Assembly (NCBI RefSeq): GCF_023278365.1
Contig: NZ_CP075338.1
Location: forward strand, 124,001-188,000
DNA length: 64,000 bases
From: Epilithonimonas zeae
Lineage (GTDB): Bacteria > Bacteroidota > Bacteroidia > Flavobacteriales > Weeksellaceae
Reading direction: 5' to 3'
Below, piece by piece: positions 3,482-60,272 of the stretch. Positions within the stretch are counted from its first letter, which is position 1; each line of letters begins with the position of its first letter. The position numbers were made by a program, and so were the translations under genes. Below the pieces are notes generated by a model. It had not been told where the DNA came from and ran no database searches. It saw nothing but the letters and a program-made list of their open reading frames with translations.

Positions 3482-3556
3482 TTTTTATAATAAAAAATTT
3501 GTTTTGTCAAGCTAAGCAACATTCACGTCCTTCGTCAGAGGTTGATTAACAGGTTG

Positions 3557-4094: not shown

Positions 4095-4156
4095 TTGCAA
4101 TTATTTCCCGTAACTTTGATGAGATAAGAAAAGATAAAACAATAGATTAGGAGCTT

Positions 4157-4265
4157 AATCCCGCTGTCCACTGTATCTTTTTTATTTTTTTACAAGTTTT
4201 GTCACTTCGATTGAATCGAAGTCCATAAAAAAATAAAAAAGGATGCCGTTCCCATCGGGGCTAGG
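4157..4265. repeat. Dispersed palindromic repeat, family 1, copy A
   Basis: This element lies in the 413-base divergent spacer between the FKBP and Fur-family genes. The outer arms are CCCGCTGTCC... and ...GGATGCCGTTCCCATCGGGG. The inner arms TTTTTATTTTTTTA / TAAAAAAATAAAAA are perfect complements. The centre ACTTCGATTGAATCGAAGT is a perfect palindrome. Related copies lie at 21425-21523, 29344-29414 and 47517-47585. It may act as a bidirectional terminator or be a mobile repeat relic; no ORF is contained. Confidence 0.65.
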
Positions 4266-4375
4266 TATTTCGTCAACGATTCAAGTTTTGTCATTAATAG
4301 TAAGATTTGTCAAAAGATTAAAATTAAAAGGATTAAAAAGTCAAAGTCAACAACCAGTTTGTCATTAAGTTTTAC

Positions 4376-29167: not shown

Positions 29168-29343
29168 TTTATTACTTCAAAAAAGAGTATTTAGATACAA
29201 AGTTCGCAAAGATTCATTAAGTACTAGCTGCTTTTAAGTTTGCAAGCTGTTTTACTTAGCAAGAAAATAATTGGAACTCTGGTTTTATTTGTTTGCAAAG
29301 ATAATTCTTTTGAGAAAAGTTTCTACTATGCGCAGCTGCGTAA

Positions 29344-29414
29344 GCGATAGTAGCGGATATCCTTTTTTGTCGGCTTGCAAGCCAACGAAAAAGATAGGAG
29401 CGGATAGCGCGGTC
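29344..29414. repeat. Dispersed palindromic repeat, family 1, copy C (inverted)
   Basis: AGCGATAGTAGCGGATATCC and AGATAGGAGCGGATAGCG flank a T6/A5 stem and the perfect centre GGCTTGCAAGCC. Its orientation is opposite to the copies at 4157 and 47517. It lies in the 482-base gap between the tRNA nucleotidyltransferase and tsaC, which otherwise shows no gene. Confidence 0.6.
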
Positions 29415-29610
29415 TTCATATTTTTTGATTGGGGAAAGCTGTCGGGAAAAATATGGAGATACGCCCCAAATTTTTGAAAATCAGGACTTTTTGTCTTTTG
29501 GTTTTGCTTTGATTGTTGGAAATCAGACATTTTGCTATGAAAAAATATGCGGTATTCTTTTTGAGATTATGATCAATACAAAAAGTAGTTTTTTTTCATA
29601 GTTTATTTTT

Positions 29611-47459: not shown

Positions 47460-47516
47460 ACAGATGTTTTTTATTTTTAGGAGCAACAAGATTGGTGCTT
47501 CGGTTCACTTTTCAAA

Positions 47517-47585
47517 CCCGCTGTCCGCTATATCTTTTTTGTTTTTCGGAAAAAACAAAAAAGGATGCCGCTACCATCGGGGCTA
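47517..47585. repeat. Dispersed palindromic repeat, family 1, copy D
   Basis: CCCGCTGTCCGCTATATCTT and GGATGCCGCTACCATCGGGG flank the complementary core TCTTTTTTGTTTTT / AAAAACAAAAAAGG. It is in the 380-base divergent gap between the NatA-like gene and mvaD, together with family-2 copy B. Confidence 0.65.
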
Positions 47586-47708
47586 TGTTGAGGTTTCGTC
47601 TTTCTTTTCAACAATTTTTGAAACCTCACAAAATTAGTTTAAAAAAGACAAAAATGTTACAGAATACGAAATTAAAAATATGATATTAATTCTTTGATGA
47701 GCGTCAGC

Positions 47709-55448: not shown

Positions 55449-55952
55449 ATGGTCGGAATAATAATGGGCAGCCAAAGCGATTTGCCAATAATGCAACAAG
55501 CTGCAGATTTTCTAAAATCTCTGGAAATACCTTACGAGCTAACAATCGTTTCTGCACACAGAACTCCGGAGCGAATGTTTGATTATGCAAAGACAGCGAA
55601 AAACAGAGGTTTGAAAGTTATCATCGCCGGAGCTGGTGGTGCGGCGCATCTTCCCGGGATGGTTGCCAGTTGTACCACTTTGCCTGTAATTGGTGTTCCT
55701 ATTTTGTCCAGTAATTCTATCGATGGTTGGGATTCTGTTTTATCGATTCTTCAGATGCCTTCCGGTATTCCTGTTGCAACGGTTGCTCTGAATGGCGCTG
55801 CCAATGCCGGAATTCTTGCCGCAAAAATAATTGGAACTGCCGACTCAGAAGTTTCTGAAAGATTACAAAAATATCAGGATTCATTGAAAGATAAAGTTCT
55901 AGGAACAGTTGAAGATATCAAGAAGCAACACCCGAATCAGTTTGATAAATAG
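55449..55952 (+). CDS. purE: N5-carboxyaminoimidazole ribonucleotide mutase
   Basis: The 167-residue class I PurE moves the carboxyl group of N5-CAIR to give CAIR. The sequence MGSQSDLPIMQQAADFLKSL, the SAHRTPERMFDYAKTA segment with the catalytic His, GAGGAAHLPGMVAS and the substrate loop are all typical. It has its own promoter box, and purK lies about 1.6 kb upstream on the same strand with two opposing genes between. Both enzymes are needed together for bicarbonate-dependent carboxylation. Confidence 0.95.
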   Translation: MVGIIMGSQSDLPIMQQAADFLKSLEIPYELTIVSAHRTPERMFDYAKTAKNRGLKVIIAGAGGAAHLPGMVASCTTLPVIGVPILSSNSIDGWDSVLSILQMPSGIPVATVALNGAANAGILAAKIIGTADSEVSERLQKYQDSLKDKVLGTVEDIKKQHPNQFDK

Positions 55953-56164: not shown

Positions 56165-57010
56165 CTATTTATCCAAAATTCCTCGAATCTTATTCGCATT
56201 TACAATTAATTCCTCCAAATAATCAAAATTCTCTTTCTCCAAAGCAGATTTGAATTTTCTAAGCTGCGAAATATGTTCGTTCAAAACATCTAAAACATTT
56301 TCTTTGTTTTGACGGAAAATCGGGACCCACATTTCCGGATGAGATTTTGCCAGACGAACAGTACTAGAAAAACCAGAACTTGCTAACTGGAAAATTGTGT
56401 CTTCTTCACGTTCTTTTTCTAAAACGGTATTGGCTAATGCATAAGATGTAATATGCGAAATGTGCGAAATATAAGCCGTGTGAATATCGTGTCCGTCAGC
56501 ATTCATATAAATAGGATGCATTTCTAAAGTATTGATGACTTGTTCTACAATCTCTAAAGCGTTTTTGTCAGATTCTTCTTTATTACAAATTACGGCTGCT
56601 TTTCCTGTAAAACTGTCTTTGGTTGCAGCATTCGGTCCAGAATTCTCGGTTCCCCACATTGGATGAAAAGCCACAAATCGTTTTCTGTTTGGATGATTTT
56701 TGATAGAGTCTACAATTCCGGATTTTGTAGAACCAACATCCATCACGACTTGTTTTTCATTAATCAAATCCAAAACATCAGGTAATATTTTTTTAGCAGA
56801 GTCTACCGGAATTGAAATAATAATTAATTCAGAATTCTTGACTCCTGCTTCAAAATCAGCTTTTTCATCAATGATATTGAGTTCGAGAGCTTTGTTTAGA
56901 TTTTCTTTATTTTGGTCAATTCCGTAAACAAATTCTGCAAAGTTTTTTTCTTTTAATTTCAATGCAATGGAACCTCCAATTAATCCGGTTCCAATTATTC
57001 CTATTTTCAT
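56165..57010 (-). CDS. tyrA: Prephenate dehydrogenase
   Basis: The 281-residue enzyme oxidatively decarboxylates prephenate to 4-hydroxyphenylpyruvate in tyrosine synthesis. The N-terminal NAD-binding motif is GTGLIGGSIALKLK, followed by DVGSTKSGIVDSI, the catalytic-region HPMWGTENSGPNAA, and HIVYISHISH-like text (read: HTAYISHISHI) with the substrate-binding His. It is mono-functional: no chorismate mutase or ACT domain is fused. A leader peptide gene with three consecutive Tyr codons and an attenuator lie 80-190 bases upstream, so transcription is probably controlled by charged tyrosyl-tRNA. Confidence 0.92.
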   Translation of the reverse strand: MKIGIIGTGLIGGSIALKLKEKNFAEFVYGIDQNKENLNKALELNIIDEKADFEAGVKNSELIIISIPVDSAKKILPDVLDLINEKQVVMDVGSTKSGIVDSIKNHPNRKRFVAFHPMWGTENSGPNAATKDSFTGKAAVICNKEESDKNALEIVEQVINTLEMHPIYMNADGHDIHTAYISHISHITSYALANTVLEKEREEDTIFQLASSGFSSTVRLAKSHPEMWVPIFRQNKENVLDVLNEHISQLRKFKSALEKENFDYLEELIVNANKIRGILDK

Positions 57011-57087
57011 CTGTAAATACTTATTTTTTTATTCTGTCAGATGGAACGCAAAGCGTTTCATTATAATATTTTTCTATTAATTTAAAA

Positions 57088-57117
57088 CAAAAAACCCCGT
57101 CATTAGGACGAGGTTTT
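57088..57117 (-). terminator. Attenuator terminator before tyrA
   Basis: In minus-strand RNA, AAAACCUCGUC pairs with GACGGGGUUUU over 11 pairs (one U-G) around a CUAAU loop, followed by a U run. It precedes the tyrA start by about 78 bases and lies in its leader, not after a gene. The UCCUAAU of this hairpin is also complementary to AUUAGGA at the leader-peptide stop codon. Confidence 0.75.
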
Positions 57118-57135
57118 GATATTTTTACATACGAA

Positions 57136-57142
57136 TCCTAAT
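57136..57142 (-). promoter_or_regulatory. Antiterminator arm overlapping the leader stop codon
   Basis: ATTAGGA spans the TAG stop of the leader peptide and is complementary to TCCTAAT at 57108-57102, with one more U-G pair possible. A ribosome stalled at the Tyr codons would leave it free; a ribosome at the stop codon would cover it. Confidence 0.6.
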
Positions 57143-57194
57143 CCTGTTGCAGGGCTTGAATTGCGTAATAATATGTTCTATTTGTTGTTTTCAC
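57138..57194 (-). CDS. Leader peptide of the tyrA attenuator
   Basis: The frame starting at GTG 57194 encodes VKTTNRTYYYAIQALQQD and stops with TAG. Three consecutive Tyr codons (TAT TAT TAC) in an 18-residue peptide ahead of a tyrosine-biosynthesis gene are the signature of ribosome-mediated attenuation. The predicted promoter places the 5' end of the RNA close to the GTG, so translation would be nearly leaderless. No other start fits. Function is inferred from codon content and RNA structure. Confidence 0.65.
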   Translation of the reverse strand: MKTTNRTYYYAIQALQQD

Positions 57195-57198
57195 AAAA

Positions 57199-57229
57199 CG
57201 AAGATAGAAATTTATTTTTGAATTTTCAA
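57199..57229 (-). promoter_or_regulatory. Promoter of the tyrA leader
   Basis: On the minus strand, TTG (57229-57227) is followed after 20 bases by TATCTTCG (57206-57199), one change from the TAnnTTTG consensus. Transcription would start near 57194. Confidence 0.5.
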
Positions 57230-57243
57230 AAATAAGCTATTGC

Positions 57244-57432
57244 TTATTTTACCTTAGAACTTTGTTTTGGACTAATTTTTTTATCTTTACTTTGAGTTCC
57301 TCCAATGTTTGAGGAAAGCTTACTTGCTTTTCGCATCTTGATAAATTCGCTAATCTCCGCTTGTTCAACCTTGGTCAAAGGACGGCTTCTTACTATGAAA
57401 TCTATACCTTTTGGTTCTCTGATAATTCCCAT
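57244..57432 (-). CDS. Small conserved-looking protein, possible partner of the GNAT-like gene
   Basis: The start is set at MGIIREPKGIDFIV (57432), giving 62 residues; nine further upstream codons overlap the previous gene. The N-terminal half (GIDFIVRSRPLTKVEQAEISEFIKMRK) resembles small flavobacterial proteins found next to a GNAT-like gene. The C-terminus is Lys/Ser-rich and probably disordered. The stop codon of the upstream GNAT-like gene is only four bases away. I suggest that both form a pair, possibly toxin-antitoxin-like, but there is no direct evidence. Confidence 0.6.
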   Translation of the reverse strand: MGIIREPKGIDFIVRSRPLTKVEQAEISEFIKMRKASKLSSNIGGTQSKDKKISPKQSSKVK

Positions 57433-57436
57433 AATT

Positions 57437-57964
57437 TTAATCTTTAAAATATTTTTCAACTAATATTTTAGCTGAATCGGTTTCTATAAACATTTTTTGG
57501 TCTTTAAAATGATAAGCTCCTAAAGTCTGTTCATAATGTTTAATTAATTTAGTTTTAGCAATGAACGCTAAATATCCATCAAAACCTTTTTGAAAAGAAA
57601 CTTTGCAAGCATAAGCCACAAGATTTCCAGCAACACCTTCATAAAGTTTATCTTCTCCAATATTGAAAGGAGCACTTTCTAATAAATTCATATAAACGTG
57701 GTCGTCCATTATGCTAATACTCAAAAGTCCCTGAATAATATTCGGATTATTCACGATAGTTAATTTATAAACTTCGCGAGAAATATCCTTGAATTCTTCT
57801 TTCCAATTAAAATTCCAACCACTCTTTTTGGTAATATTCTTTAAATCCTCTTTTGTCAATAAAGAAATTTCGGTTTGAAAACTATCTCCGGAAATCACAT
57901 TTATAATTGAGTTTGTAAGTTTATCTATTACAAAATCAAGTTGTATTTTGGGAGCTAATTTCAT
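57437..57964 (-). CDS. GNAT-like acetyltransferase domain protein
   Basis: The start is MKLAPKIQLDFVIDKLTN at 57964, giving 175 residues and a 28-base gap after the antiporter gene. The C-terminal half (YEGVAGNLVAYACKVSFQKG, then FDGYLAFIAKTKLIKHYEQTLGAYHF split over helix and strand) has the GNAT motif A/B pattern: a pyrophosphate-type loop followed by a helix and the Tyr-containing end. The acceptor substrate is unknown. It is co-oriented with the small gene that follows and with the antiporter before it. Confidence 0.65.
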   Translation of the reverse strand: MKLAPKIQLDFVIDKLTNSIINVISGDSFQTEISLLTKEDLKNITKKSGWNFNWKEEFKDISREVYKLTIVNNPNIIQGLLSISIMDDHVYMNLLESAPFNIGEDKLYEGVAGNLVAYACKVSFQKGFDGYLAFIAKTKLIKHYEQTLGAYHFKDQKMFIETDSAKILVEKYFKD

Positions 57965-57992
57965 TAATCTAATATACGAAAATATATTTAAT

Positions 57993-60272
57993 TTATGGAT
58001 TCGAAACAATTAAAGTGGATGGAATGTCTGATAACCAAAGACTTTTTGTATCAATCAGATTTTTCCAGCTTTTGCTGCTGATCAACATCAAATCCTGAGA
58101 TTCTAGGAATTCTTTTTCGATTGTTTTTTCATTGTAAAGCGTAATGTGATTCGGCGCGATATGTTCGATATTTCTTATCAATTCACGGATTTCTGTATTC
58201 TTACGGATTTGTCCTGCTGCGTCCAAAATAATGACCTGAGAGTCGTTGTTATTGATTAATCGTTTAGCATATTCAACCAGATAAAAATCGCTCAAATCAA
58301 AAATTGGGATAAAGATTCTGTCTGCACTTTCAAAGTTTTTGTCAACCATTATCCCAACAGGAATATTGGTTTTATCGATAATACTTAATGTAAAATCGTC
58401 GAAAGGGGAGTTGTTGAAAATATATGATTTTCCAGTAACCGTATTGAGTAATTTACTTGGATTGATGATTTTGGTTGTGAAACCAAGCAGTTTTCCAAGC
58501 AAAGTACCTTCGTAAATGGATTTTCCTAACATTATCAAAAGCAAATCATAATTACCTTTGTTAGTAATATTAACTAAATCACTTTGTGTATCTGTGGAAG
58601 CTTTGAAAAGTGTCGTTACTTCCAGTTTTAAAGCTTGAGATGTATCAATCACATCTTCAAATAGTTCTTTTTCATAATCCTCGATGTCAAAAGCGTGCAA
58701 TTCATCAAGAGGAGCAATGTTCATGGCAGTTACGCTTTTGTTGCCGTTCATTTTATGCGTGAAATTATCAGCTAATTTCAACAATGTACTTCCAGATTCC
58801 GGCGTTTCGAATGATAAAAGAACTTTATATTTTTCATCATTCTCATTGTAGTCTTCTTCCAGACTTGATTTTTTTCCTTTGAAGAAATAATTAATAATAT
58901 CCAAACTCGGTCCGGTCATAAAGGTTGTGAAAAGCGCCATTATCACAAGCATCGCAAATAATTCAGGACCTAAAACACCTAAGTCATAACCGATATTAAG
59001 AACAATCAGTTCAGTCAAACCTCTTGTATTCATCAAAGCACCGATGGTGAGACTGTCTTTCCAATTTAATCTTAAAAATTTAGCAGTCAATGCGCTTCCT
59101 ACAAATTTTCCGATAACGGCAGTTAAGATAATCAATCCACCGATTTTCCAGAGATGGGGGTCGTTCAATAATCCGATTTGTGTTCTAAGTCCTGTGAATA
59201 CAAAGAATAATGGAAGTAACAAAACCAAAGCGACGTCTTCAACTTTCTCGATGAAAAGGTTTCTGAATTTCACATTTTCTGGCATTATCGCTCCAGCCAT
59301 AAACGCTCCGAAAAGTGCATGGATCCCGATAACTTCTGTCAAATAAGATGAGATAATTAGTATCAAAAAGAAAACGGCTACCAATGCTTTGTTGATGAAT
59401 CCTTTTCCTTTTTGTGATTCGGCGATTCTTGTAAGGAAAGGTTTAACCAATCTTATCATCAAGAAAACGTAGACAATTGCCATTATAATGACAAAAATAG
59501 AACCCGAAAAAGAGCCAGCTTTTACAACTGCAATTACCGCAGCCAAAATACACCAAGCGGTAATGTCATCGGCTGCTGCACAAGTGATTACAACTGTTCC
59601 TATTTTAGTTTTATGGAGATTCCGTTCCTGAACAATTCTTGCAAGAACTGGAAATGCTGTGATACTCATCGCAATCGCCATAAATAAGGCAAACGAACTG
59701 AATTGAATTCCGTCCGGCGCGAATTCTTTATAAATAAAATAAGCTAGTCCAACACCTAAAGCAAATGGAATGATAATACTTGCGTGGCTGATAACAACCG
59801 CATCGTGTGCTTTTTTTCTCAAAACGCTCAAATCCAGCTCCATCCCTACGATATACATAAAGAGAATCAATCCGATCTGACTTAGAAATTGTAAGTTAGG
59901 AAGCGATTCTTTTGGGAACATAAACGCTGAAAATTCAGGGAAATATAATCCTACAAGTGATGGTCCAAGAACAATACCAGCAATCATTTCGCCAATTACA
60001 GATGGTTGTTTCAGCTTAACACAAATCCATCCGAAAAACTTAGCAACAACAATTATGGTAACAATTTGTGCCAAAAGAAGTGCCAATGGATGATGTAGAT
60101 TTTCTAAGAATGATGTAGCGAAAGTGTCCCACATCGTTCCACCAGTTGCCTTAGTCGGTGCAATACTTTCTCCAATTTCCAAAGTTTTTCCTTCTACAAA
60201 AAACCAATACATCAAACAAGAGAAAAACGCTATTGTAAGGACGTAAAAGATAATATTTCTATACTTTTTCAT
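57993..60272 (-). CDS. CPA2-type cation:proton antiporter with C-terminal stress-like domains
   Basis: The start MKKYRNIIFYVLT at 60272 gives 759 residues. An N-terminal helix and linker precede the Na+/H+ exchanger domain (about 70-480, 12 or so helices, opening LALLLAQIVTIIVVAKFFGWICVKL; the AADDITAWCILA and GALMNTRGLTELIVLNIG segments mark the ion path). The cytoplasmic C-terminal part (from about 495, YKVLLSFETPESGSTLLKLAD) shows two regions like universal-stress-protein folds. It probably exchanges K+ or Na+ for H+ in the inner membrane. The divergent gene set upstream is a two-component system. Confidence 0.9.
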   Translation of the reverse strand: MKKYRNIIFYVLTIAFFSCLMYWFFVEGKTLEIGESIAPTKATGGTMWDTFATSFLENLHHPLALLLAQIVTIIVVAKFFGWICVKLKQPSVIGEMIAGIVLGPSLVGLYFPEFSAFMFPKESLPNLQFLSQIGLILFMYIVGMELDLSVLRKKAHDAVVISHASIIIPFALGVGLAYFIYKEFAPDGIQFSSFALFMAIAMSITAFPVLARIVQERNLHKTKIGTVVITCAAADDITAWCILAAVIAVVKAGSFSGSIFVIIMAIVYVFLMIRLVKPFLTRIAESQKGKGFINKALVAVFFLILIISSYLTEVIGIHALFGAFMAGAIMPENVKFRNLFIEKVEDVALVLLLPLFFVFTGLRTQIGLLNDPHLWKIGGLIILTAVIGKFVGSALTAKFLRLNWKDSLTIGALMNTRGLTELIVLNIGYDLGVLGPELFAMLVIMALFTTFMTGPSLDIINYFFKGKKSSLEEDYNENDEKYKVLLSFETPESGSTLLKLADNFTHKMNGNKSVTAMNIAPLDELHAFDIEDYEKELFEDVIDTSQALKLEVTTLFKASTDTQSDLVNITNKGNYDLLLIMLGKSIYEGTLLGKLLGFTTKIINPSKLLNTVTGKSYIFNNSPFDDFTLSIIDKTNIPVGIMVDKNFESADRIFIPIFDLSDFYLVEYAKRLINNNDSQVIILDAAGQIRKNTEIRELIRNIEHIAPNHITLYNEKTIEKEFLESQDLMLISSKSWKNLIDTKSLWLSDIPSTLIVSNP

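Follow-up and report, generated by a model that had tools for sequence, protein, structure and literature searches.

The mechanism class of ribosome-mediated attenuation is already known, with textbook examples for Trp, His, Phe, Leu, Ile and Thr. In E. coli, the trpL-trpE and pheL-pheA regions contain competing protector, antiterminator and terminator hairpins. The same three elements were found in the leader described here, which precedes the prephenate dehydrogenase gene tyrA of Epilithonimonas zeae in a window of 64,000 nucleotides (nt) from contig NZ_CP075338.1 (positions 124,001 to 188,000). All positions given below count from the first letter of this window, and the genome to which it belongs is a single contig of 3.94 Mb. 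The E. coli systems share with the proposed one a short, residue-rich leader peptide, a stalled ribosome and a downstream gene of the same branch (PMC11802643). The tyrA leader differs from trpL and pheL in that it would sense Tyr, precedes a prephenate dehydrogenase, has a predicted leaderless GTG start and shows no kinship in Rfam. No Rfam family reached its gathering score at the leader; the best leader family, Phe_leader (RF01859), scored 23.4 bits and thus remained below its gathering score of 55.

In Corynebacterium glutamicum, the aroR leader before aroF carries Phe-Tyr-Phe, exerts control by stalling and was reported as unresponsive to Tyr (PMC11802643). It resembles the tyrA leader as an aromatic-amino-acid leader peptide that controls an aromatic gene by stalling, whereas Tyr forms the only run at tyrA, a gene for Tyr synthesis. 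Upstream of aroF, a Phe leader has been described as well (PMC8632094). The attenuator RNA of Sinorhizobium meliloti trpL begins with the leader start codon and is leaderless (PMC7298713), as is predicted here, but it is a Trp attenuator with an ATG start from another phylum. Flavobacterium psychrophilum belongs to the same phylum and has the same promoter type. Strong clues for leader-peptide attenuation upstream of its amino-acid operons were reported, with structured 5' elements conserved at pheA and hisG, and Shine-Dalgarno sequences were reported to be absent (PMC9723704). Leaders of tyrA or of the phenylalanine 4-hydroxylase gene phhA are not named in the available text of that paper, which did not include Table S7. 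A preliminary description of the E. zeae locus had called such leaders rarely described in Bacteroidetes, and this needs amending in view of the clues from F. psychrophilum.

Comparison of sequences establishes the frame with its Tyr codons, the spacing of the promoter, the competition among three pairings and the association with tyrA. On this basis, the tyrA leader is regarded, with a probability of roughly 90%, as a ribosome-mediated transcription attenuator that senses charged tRNA-Tyr. Its parts, in the order of transcription, are as follows:

57229-57227, minus strand: TTG, a possible -33 element, weakly conserved
57199 to 57206, minus strand: TATCTTCG, the -7 box of a sigma-A promoter of the Bacteroidota type, TA..TT.G at -12 to -5 in 78/78 leaders
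57138 to 57194, minus strand: leader peptide frame of 18 codons, GTG 57194-57192 to TAG 57140-57138, reading VKTTNRTYYYAIQALQQD and stop
57165 to 57173, minus strand: Tyr run TAT TAT TAC, codons 8-10, the proposed sensor
57130 to 57167, minus strand: 1:2 (protector or pause) hairpin, predicted by folding
57137 to 57145, minus strand: segment 2, AGGAUUAGG, which forms the 5' side of the antiterminator and spans the stop codon of the leader
57105 to 57113, minus strand: segment 3, CCUCGUCCU, common to antiterminator and terminator
57091 to 57117, minus strand: 3:4 intrinsic terminator hairpin of 11 pairs with a 5-nt loop, then a U-rich tail
56165 to 57010, minus strand: tyrA, prephenate dehydrogenase (Pfam PDH_N and PDH_C), the putatively controlled gene, with its ATG at 57010

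According to the proposed mechanism, transcription would start on the GTG or about 1 nt from it, and the ribosome would load directly on the 5' end. With ample Tyr-tRNA, it would reach the stop codon inside segment 2 and mask this segment; the 3:4 terminator could then form, and transcription would end before tyrA. With scarce Tyr-tRNA, the ribosome would stall at codons 8-10 and cover the 5' arm of the 1:2 hairpin. Segment 2 would then be free to pair with segment 3, no terminator would form and tyrA would be transcribed. If the frame were not translated at all, the 1:2 and 3:4 hairpins would both form and transcription would stop. Predicted properties are the position of the RNA 5' end in E. 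zeae, translation of the leader frame, ribosome stalling and a response to tyrosine. Tyrosine attenuation before tyrA had already been proposed in the preliminary description, and leader, terminator, antiterminator and protector in relatives support it.

The frame was re-read on the minus strand and agreed with the 18 residues and three Tyr codons noted before. Neither strand of the 64-kb window has another short frame with three Tyr codons in succession (10-40 codons, start at most 15 codons before the run), and when the 240 nt upstream were dinucleotide-shuffled, such a frame arose in 11/4000 cases. The downstream gene makes the amino acid of the leader run, as the product of tyrA matched NCBIfam NF006307 prephenate dehydrogenase with 368.7 bits (cut-off 295). 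By the map of open reading frames (ORFs), tyrA is a single-gene unit and the next ORF on its 3' side (55449-55952, plus strand) is convergent. The 11-pair terminator described earlier was recovered at 57117-57091 with its 5-nt loop and U-rich tail, as the sole terminator-like site found on the minus strand in 56500-57800. Its distance to tyrA had been given as 78 bases; 80 nt were measured between the end of the stem and the ATG. An insert bearing a palindrome lies in this interval (57035-57062, one copy in the window) and is also present in the related loci L004, L017 and L018.

Counts over 78 leaders refer to 77 relatives and the window. The box TA..TT.G (TAnnTT-G) stands exactly 4 nt before the GTG or ATG in 78/78, and the four intervening bases vary. 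For this count, start and box were picked as the pair nearest to 4 nt; without that pick, 68/78 leaders gave just one candidate pair of start and box, spaced by 4 nt, and the remaining 10/78 gave two possible distances, one of them 4 nt. The spacing in one more leader, L146, reads as 5. The first base of the start codon is G or A over the 78 leaders, and counting TTG at 19-21 nt 5' of the box gave 19 occurrences in the 78 sequences. Relative to the mapped transcription starts of F. psychrophilum, the TAnnTTTG box of sigma-A occupies -12 to -5 (PMC9723704). Because of this position and the 4-nt spacing, the RNA is predicted to begin at the start codon and the leader peptide to be leaderless, which supports the earlier expectation of almost no 5' untranslated region.

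The relatives were taken from the best 80 of 189 tyrA loci found in a contig scan of other genomes; the closest of these with a species name belong to Epilithonimonas. A Tyr-run leader with a terminator was present upstream of tyrA in 77/80 loci, 76 with YYY and one (L014) with YYD, so that the conservation of frame and Tyr codons on which the preliminary description had been made to depend was found. Over the 78 leaders, the start codon is GTG in 69 and ATG in nine, and the length is 18 codons in 67, 17 in ten and 16 in one. The first Tyr codon of the run is TAT throughout (78/78), the second TAT in 75 and TAC in three, and the third codon TAT in 39, TAC in 38 and GAC in one. Because the third codon drifts between TAT and TAC, the Tyr residue itself is the conserved item. 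The leader stays with tyrA while the neighbourhood changes: the two ORFs upstream of it in the window were present in only 1/80 loci (L010; tblastn, E 1e-3; L007 offers only 407 nt before tyrA for this search). Therefore, the conserved unit consists of promoter, leader, terminator and tyrA. The two upstream ORFs (57244-57459 and 57437-58009) had no Pfam match.

The 1:2, 2:3 and 3:4 hairpins are mutually exclusive and recurrent in relatives, and the fold of the leader RNA was better than that of shuffled sequences (z -2.77, 2/200 as good). Pairing was evaluated in alignment A2 with 31 sequences, namely 24 of the 77 in alignment A1, selected at less than 88% identity, and 7/8 further leaders (not L123). 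L072 is missing from A1 because the terminator pattern did not catch it. In the terminator, 96.4% of the cells were paired and 4/11 pairs were changed on both sides. None of 500 shuffles reached its paired percentage, both-side changes or covariation score, and 34/500 were as high in further pair types.

For the antiterminator, the preliminary description had named ATTAGGA and TCCTAAT. This pairing is present in the window, but its register is not conserved (133/194 cells paired over the 31 sequences); it was rejected and replaced. The conserved antiterminator consists of AGGAU.AGG (57145-57137) with CCU.GUCCU (57113-57105), of which 8/9 positions pair in the window. The duplex of segments 2 and 3 had a mean of -10.06 kcal/mol versus -4.77 kcal/mol for shuffled segment 2 (78 leaders). 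In A2, 84.5% of its cells were paired; 0/500 shuffles were as high and slid controls reached at most 48.2%. The covariation score amounted to 0.166 versus 0.110 for shuffled sequences (0/500). In L026, L072 and L073, segment 3 has G in place of U and segment 2 has the matching C. The stop codon lies within segment 2 in most relatives, as it does in the window; in L019 and L146, the frame ends earlier and segment 2 lies just 3' of the stop.

The 1:2 hairpin at 57167-57130 was absent from the parts listed in the preliminary description. It covers the second half of the frame and had a negative z in 31/31 sequences, with a mean of -2.43 and 17/31 below -2. On the fixed columns of one clade, its pairing is lost in L026-type leaders and partly kept in the leaders of genus g10. 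Both groups each fold their own version of 1:2 from unlike sequence.

Within the family, RNA model R1 matched 203/320 genomes in 7/33 genera at E ≤ 0.01. Strong matches (E ≤ 2e-4) were obtained in 199/320 genomes from four genera, namely 23/23 in g1, the genus of the window, 169/173 in g6, five in g10 and two in g32. Tyr leaders of the same architecture were read in g10 (L133, L137, L138) and g32 (L146) and thus in two further genera. Weak matches in g11, g16 and g24 (four genomes, E 0.003-0.006) were treated as plain terminators; the only weak family match that was read, L192 in g16, had no Tyr leader. In the window's own genome, 13 additional matches appeared when R1 was applied with E up to 10. 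Seven of them (L083-L089) were examined and had no Tyr leader; by eye, they resemble ordinary terminators or chance matches. Model R2 gave 57 matches in 395 genomes of the order, and all those outside the family were weak (E > 0.002). Eight weak order-level matches were read (L190-L197): two are Tyr leaders before phhA and six are without a Tyr leader, among them L193, which lies less than 1 kb 5' of hisG in genome G327.

Several observations weigh against tyrosine attenuation at tyrA or limit its support. No leader was found upstream of tyrA in 3/80 loci (L027, L077 from Cloacibacterium, and L079), and L014 has YYD instead of YYY. The leader of L027 and L079 appears to have been lost by deletion, because both retain an apparent terminator 3' half by eye. 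As the sequences are related, the counts do not equal independent events. Genome G056 (L134, g6), which was counted as a match, carries GTA where the start codon would be and lacks the Tyr run. Much of its hairpin region is kept, with a changed base in the terminator and 1:2 arms recognisable by eye, and it is a decayed leader, i.e. a natural loss. Moreover, 60 family genomes were chosen partly for weak or missing model matches, and 43 of them have tyrA. By reading, 11 of these 43 loci have an intact leader, one has a decayed leader and 31 have none. In many of the loci without a leader, what stands just before tyrA reads like the end of another gene.

The antiterminator adds further points of this kind. 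Its sequence is highly conserved and has changed little; two pairs were changed on both sides (466/500 shuffles as high), and seven further pair types occurred (467/500 as high). The six cells changed on both sides exceed the shuffles only partly (41/500 as high), and one of the nine positions is unpaired in 26/31 sequences. In L030, the U-to-G change in segment 3 has no matching change in segment 2, and L011 has one unmatched base. Covariation in the two hairpins, a check proposed in the preliminary description, was found for the terminator, while the antiterminator did not exceed the shuffles on two of five covariation measures. The 1:2 hairpin is weak in L032 (z -0.31), L064 (-0.66) and L146 (-0.68).

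Another way of using the same hairpins would be an arrest or sensor peptide, whose nascent chain is stalled by free tyrosine or another ligand so that the hairpins read this stall. This is considered very unlikely. It would fit the conservation of the C-terminal part within clades (..YYYRIFNSDLG and ..YYYAIxxLxxD, each followed by the stop), but the codons of this part coincide with the 1:2 hairpin and segment 2. The endings differ by clade (DLG, KQD, VFG, NDH), and what the clades share is the Tyr run. A ribosome stalled at the stop codon would furthermore hide segment 2, which would lead to termination.

It is highly improbable that an RNA-binding protein or a small ligand reads the switch like a riboswitch or TRAP, with the frame being incidental. 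Alternative hairpins as such fit any reader, and no known constraint follows from Rfam, where no family reached its gathering score at this place. However, the clades fold 1:2 from unlike sequences, which leaves little to recognise, and conservation concerns a frame that can be translated, with its Tyr codons. The idea that the hairpin merely terminates the upstream gene and that the short frame is due to chance draws on a same-strand ORF which ends at 57244, about 50 nt before the leader GTG, but it is already contradicted by conservation and can hardly be right, given that the upstream ORFs occur in 1/80 loci versus 77/80 for leader, promoter and terminator, that the promoter spacing is kept in 78/78 and that a chance frame appeared in only 11/4000 shuffles.

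The proposed attenuator at tyrA is accompanied by sibling leaders in the same genome. The genome's own hisG (L163) is preceded by a His-run leader, MSIQLMHHHHHSHVQAGR, and its own trpE (L164) by a Trp-run leader, MKLMNTKNWWWLSNSLSGLKGLSVF, both with a terminator-like hairpin by eye. The box of the trp leader lies 5 nt from the ATG, so that this leader is nearly leaderless, too. Upstream of the genome's own pheA and ilvD, no leader was seen. A short frame with at least three consecutive His codons lies within 1.5 kb upstream in 28/30 hisG loci, and one with WW or more, 28 of them WWW, in 30/30 trpE loci (own loci included in both cases); a few of the W frames lie far off and could be unrelated. 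Given the His and Trp leaders in the same genome, the tyrosine leader is therefore one of a set. Other structured RNAs in the 64-kb window are three Flavo-1 RNAs (47510-47588, 4153-4266 and 29330-29418), a motif of unknown function, and an L19-Flavobacteria ribosomal protein leader at 3517-3544.

Phenylalanine 4-hydroxylase converts Phe to Tyr and is the other route to tyrosine. The two Tyr leaders before its gene among the weak R2 matches are L191, MKNLNNTYYYYPILTRRIGQ, and L195, MKRKNTYYYYLNSTP. The partial proteins of both loci matched phenylalanine 4-monooxygenase best, with 203.1 and 220.7 bits, respectively, which is below the full-length cut-off of 247. The corresponding Pfam family PF00351 was detected in 93/395 genomes of the order and had no match in the window's genome. 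Thirty PF00351 loci were fetched, ten of a short form with open frames of 232-286 amino acids and 20 of a long form with 427-609 amino acids; L191 is the same place as L233 and L195 the same as L229. A leader with four to five Tyr codons in a row was present in 6/10 short-form loci (L228, L229, L231, L232, L233 and L235, from families f15, f13 and f3) and was not found in the short-form loci L230, L234, L236 and L237. Among the long-form loci, 0/19 had an upstream short frame with at least three consecutive Tyr codons (L241 starts inside the gene). All six short-form leaders have a terminator before the gene, a foldable 1:2 hairpin and a possible 2:3 pairing. In L232 and L235, the box lies 4 nt before the start codon.

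The Flavobacteriales probably possess a dedicated Tyr attenuator, placed ahead of whatever gene supplies tyrosine, which is tyrA in the Epilithonimonas/Chryseobacterium group and the phenylalanine 4-hydroxylase gene in three or more other families. It would be leaderless at tyrA and at some of the hydroxylase genes, and the first known Tyr-only sensor as far as the searched literature goes. A tyrosine-only attenuator was not found in a search limited to open-licence PMC papers. As comparative surveys of attenuation exist in subscription journals, priority is not claimed. No such attenuator is described in the available parts of PMC9723704, PMC7366714, PMC2659441, PMC7298713, PMC8632094 and PMC11802643.

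The placement of Tyr leaders before phhA suggests that the hydroxylase serves tyrosine synthesis in these organisms and not only the breakdown of phenylalanine. If tyrosine attenuation by a leaderless peptide is true, the first ribosome would load on a bare 5' end and no ribosome-binding site would be needed. A conserved Tyr attenuator of this type would thus be a test of whether leaderless translation couples tightly enough to RNA polymerase to allow attenuation.
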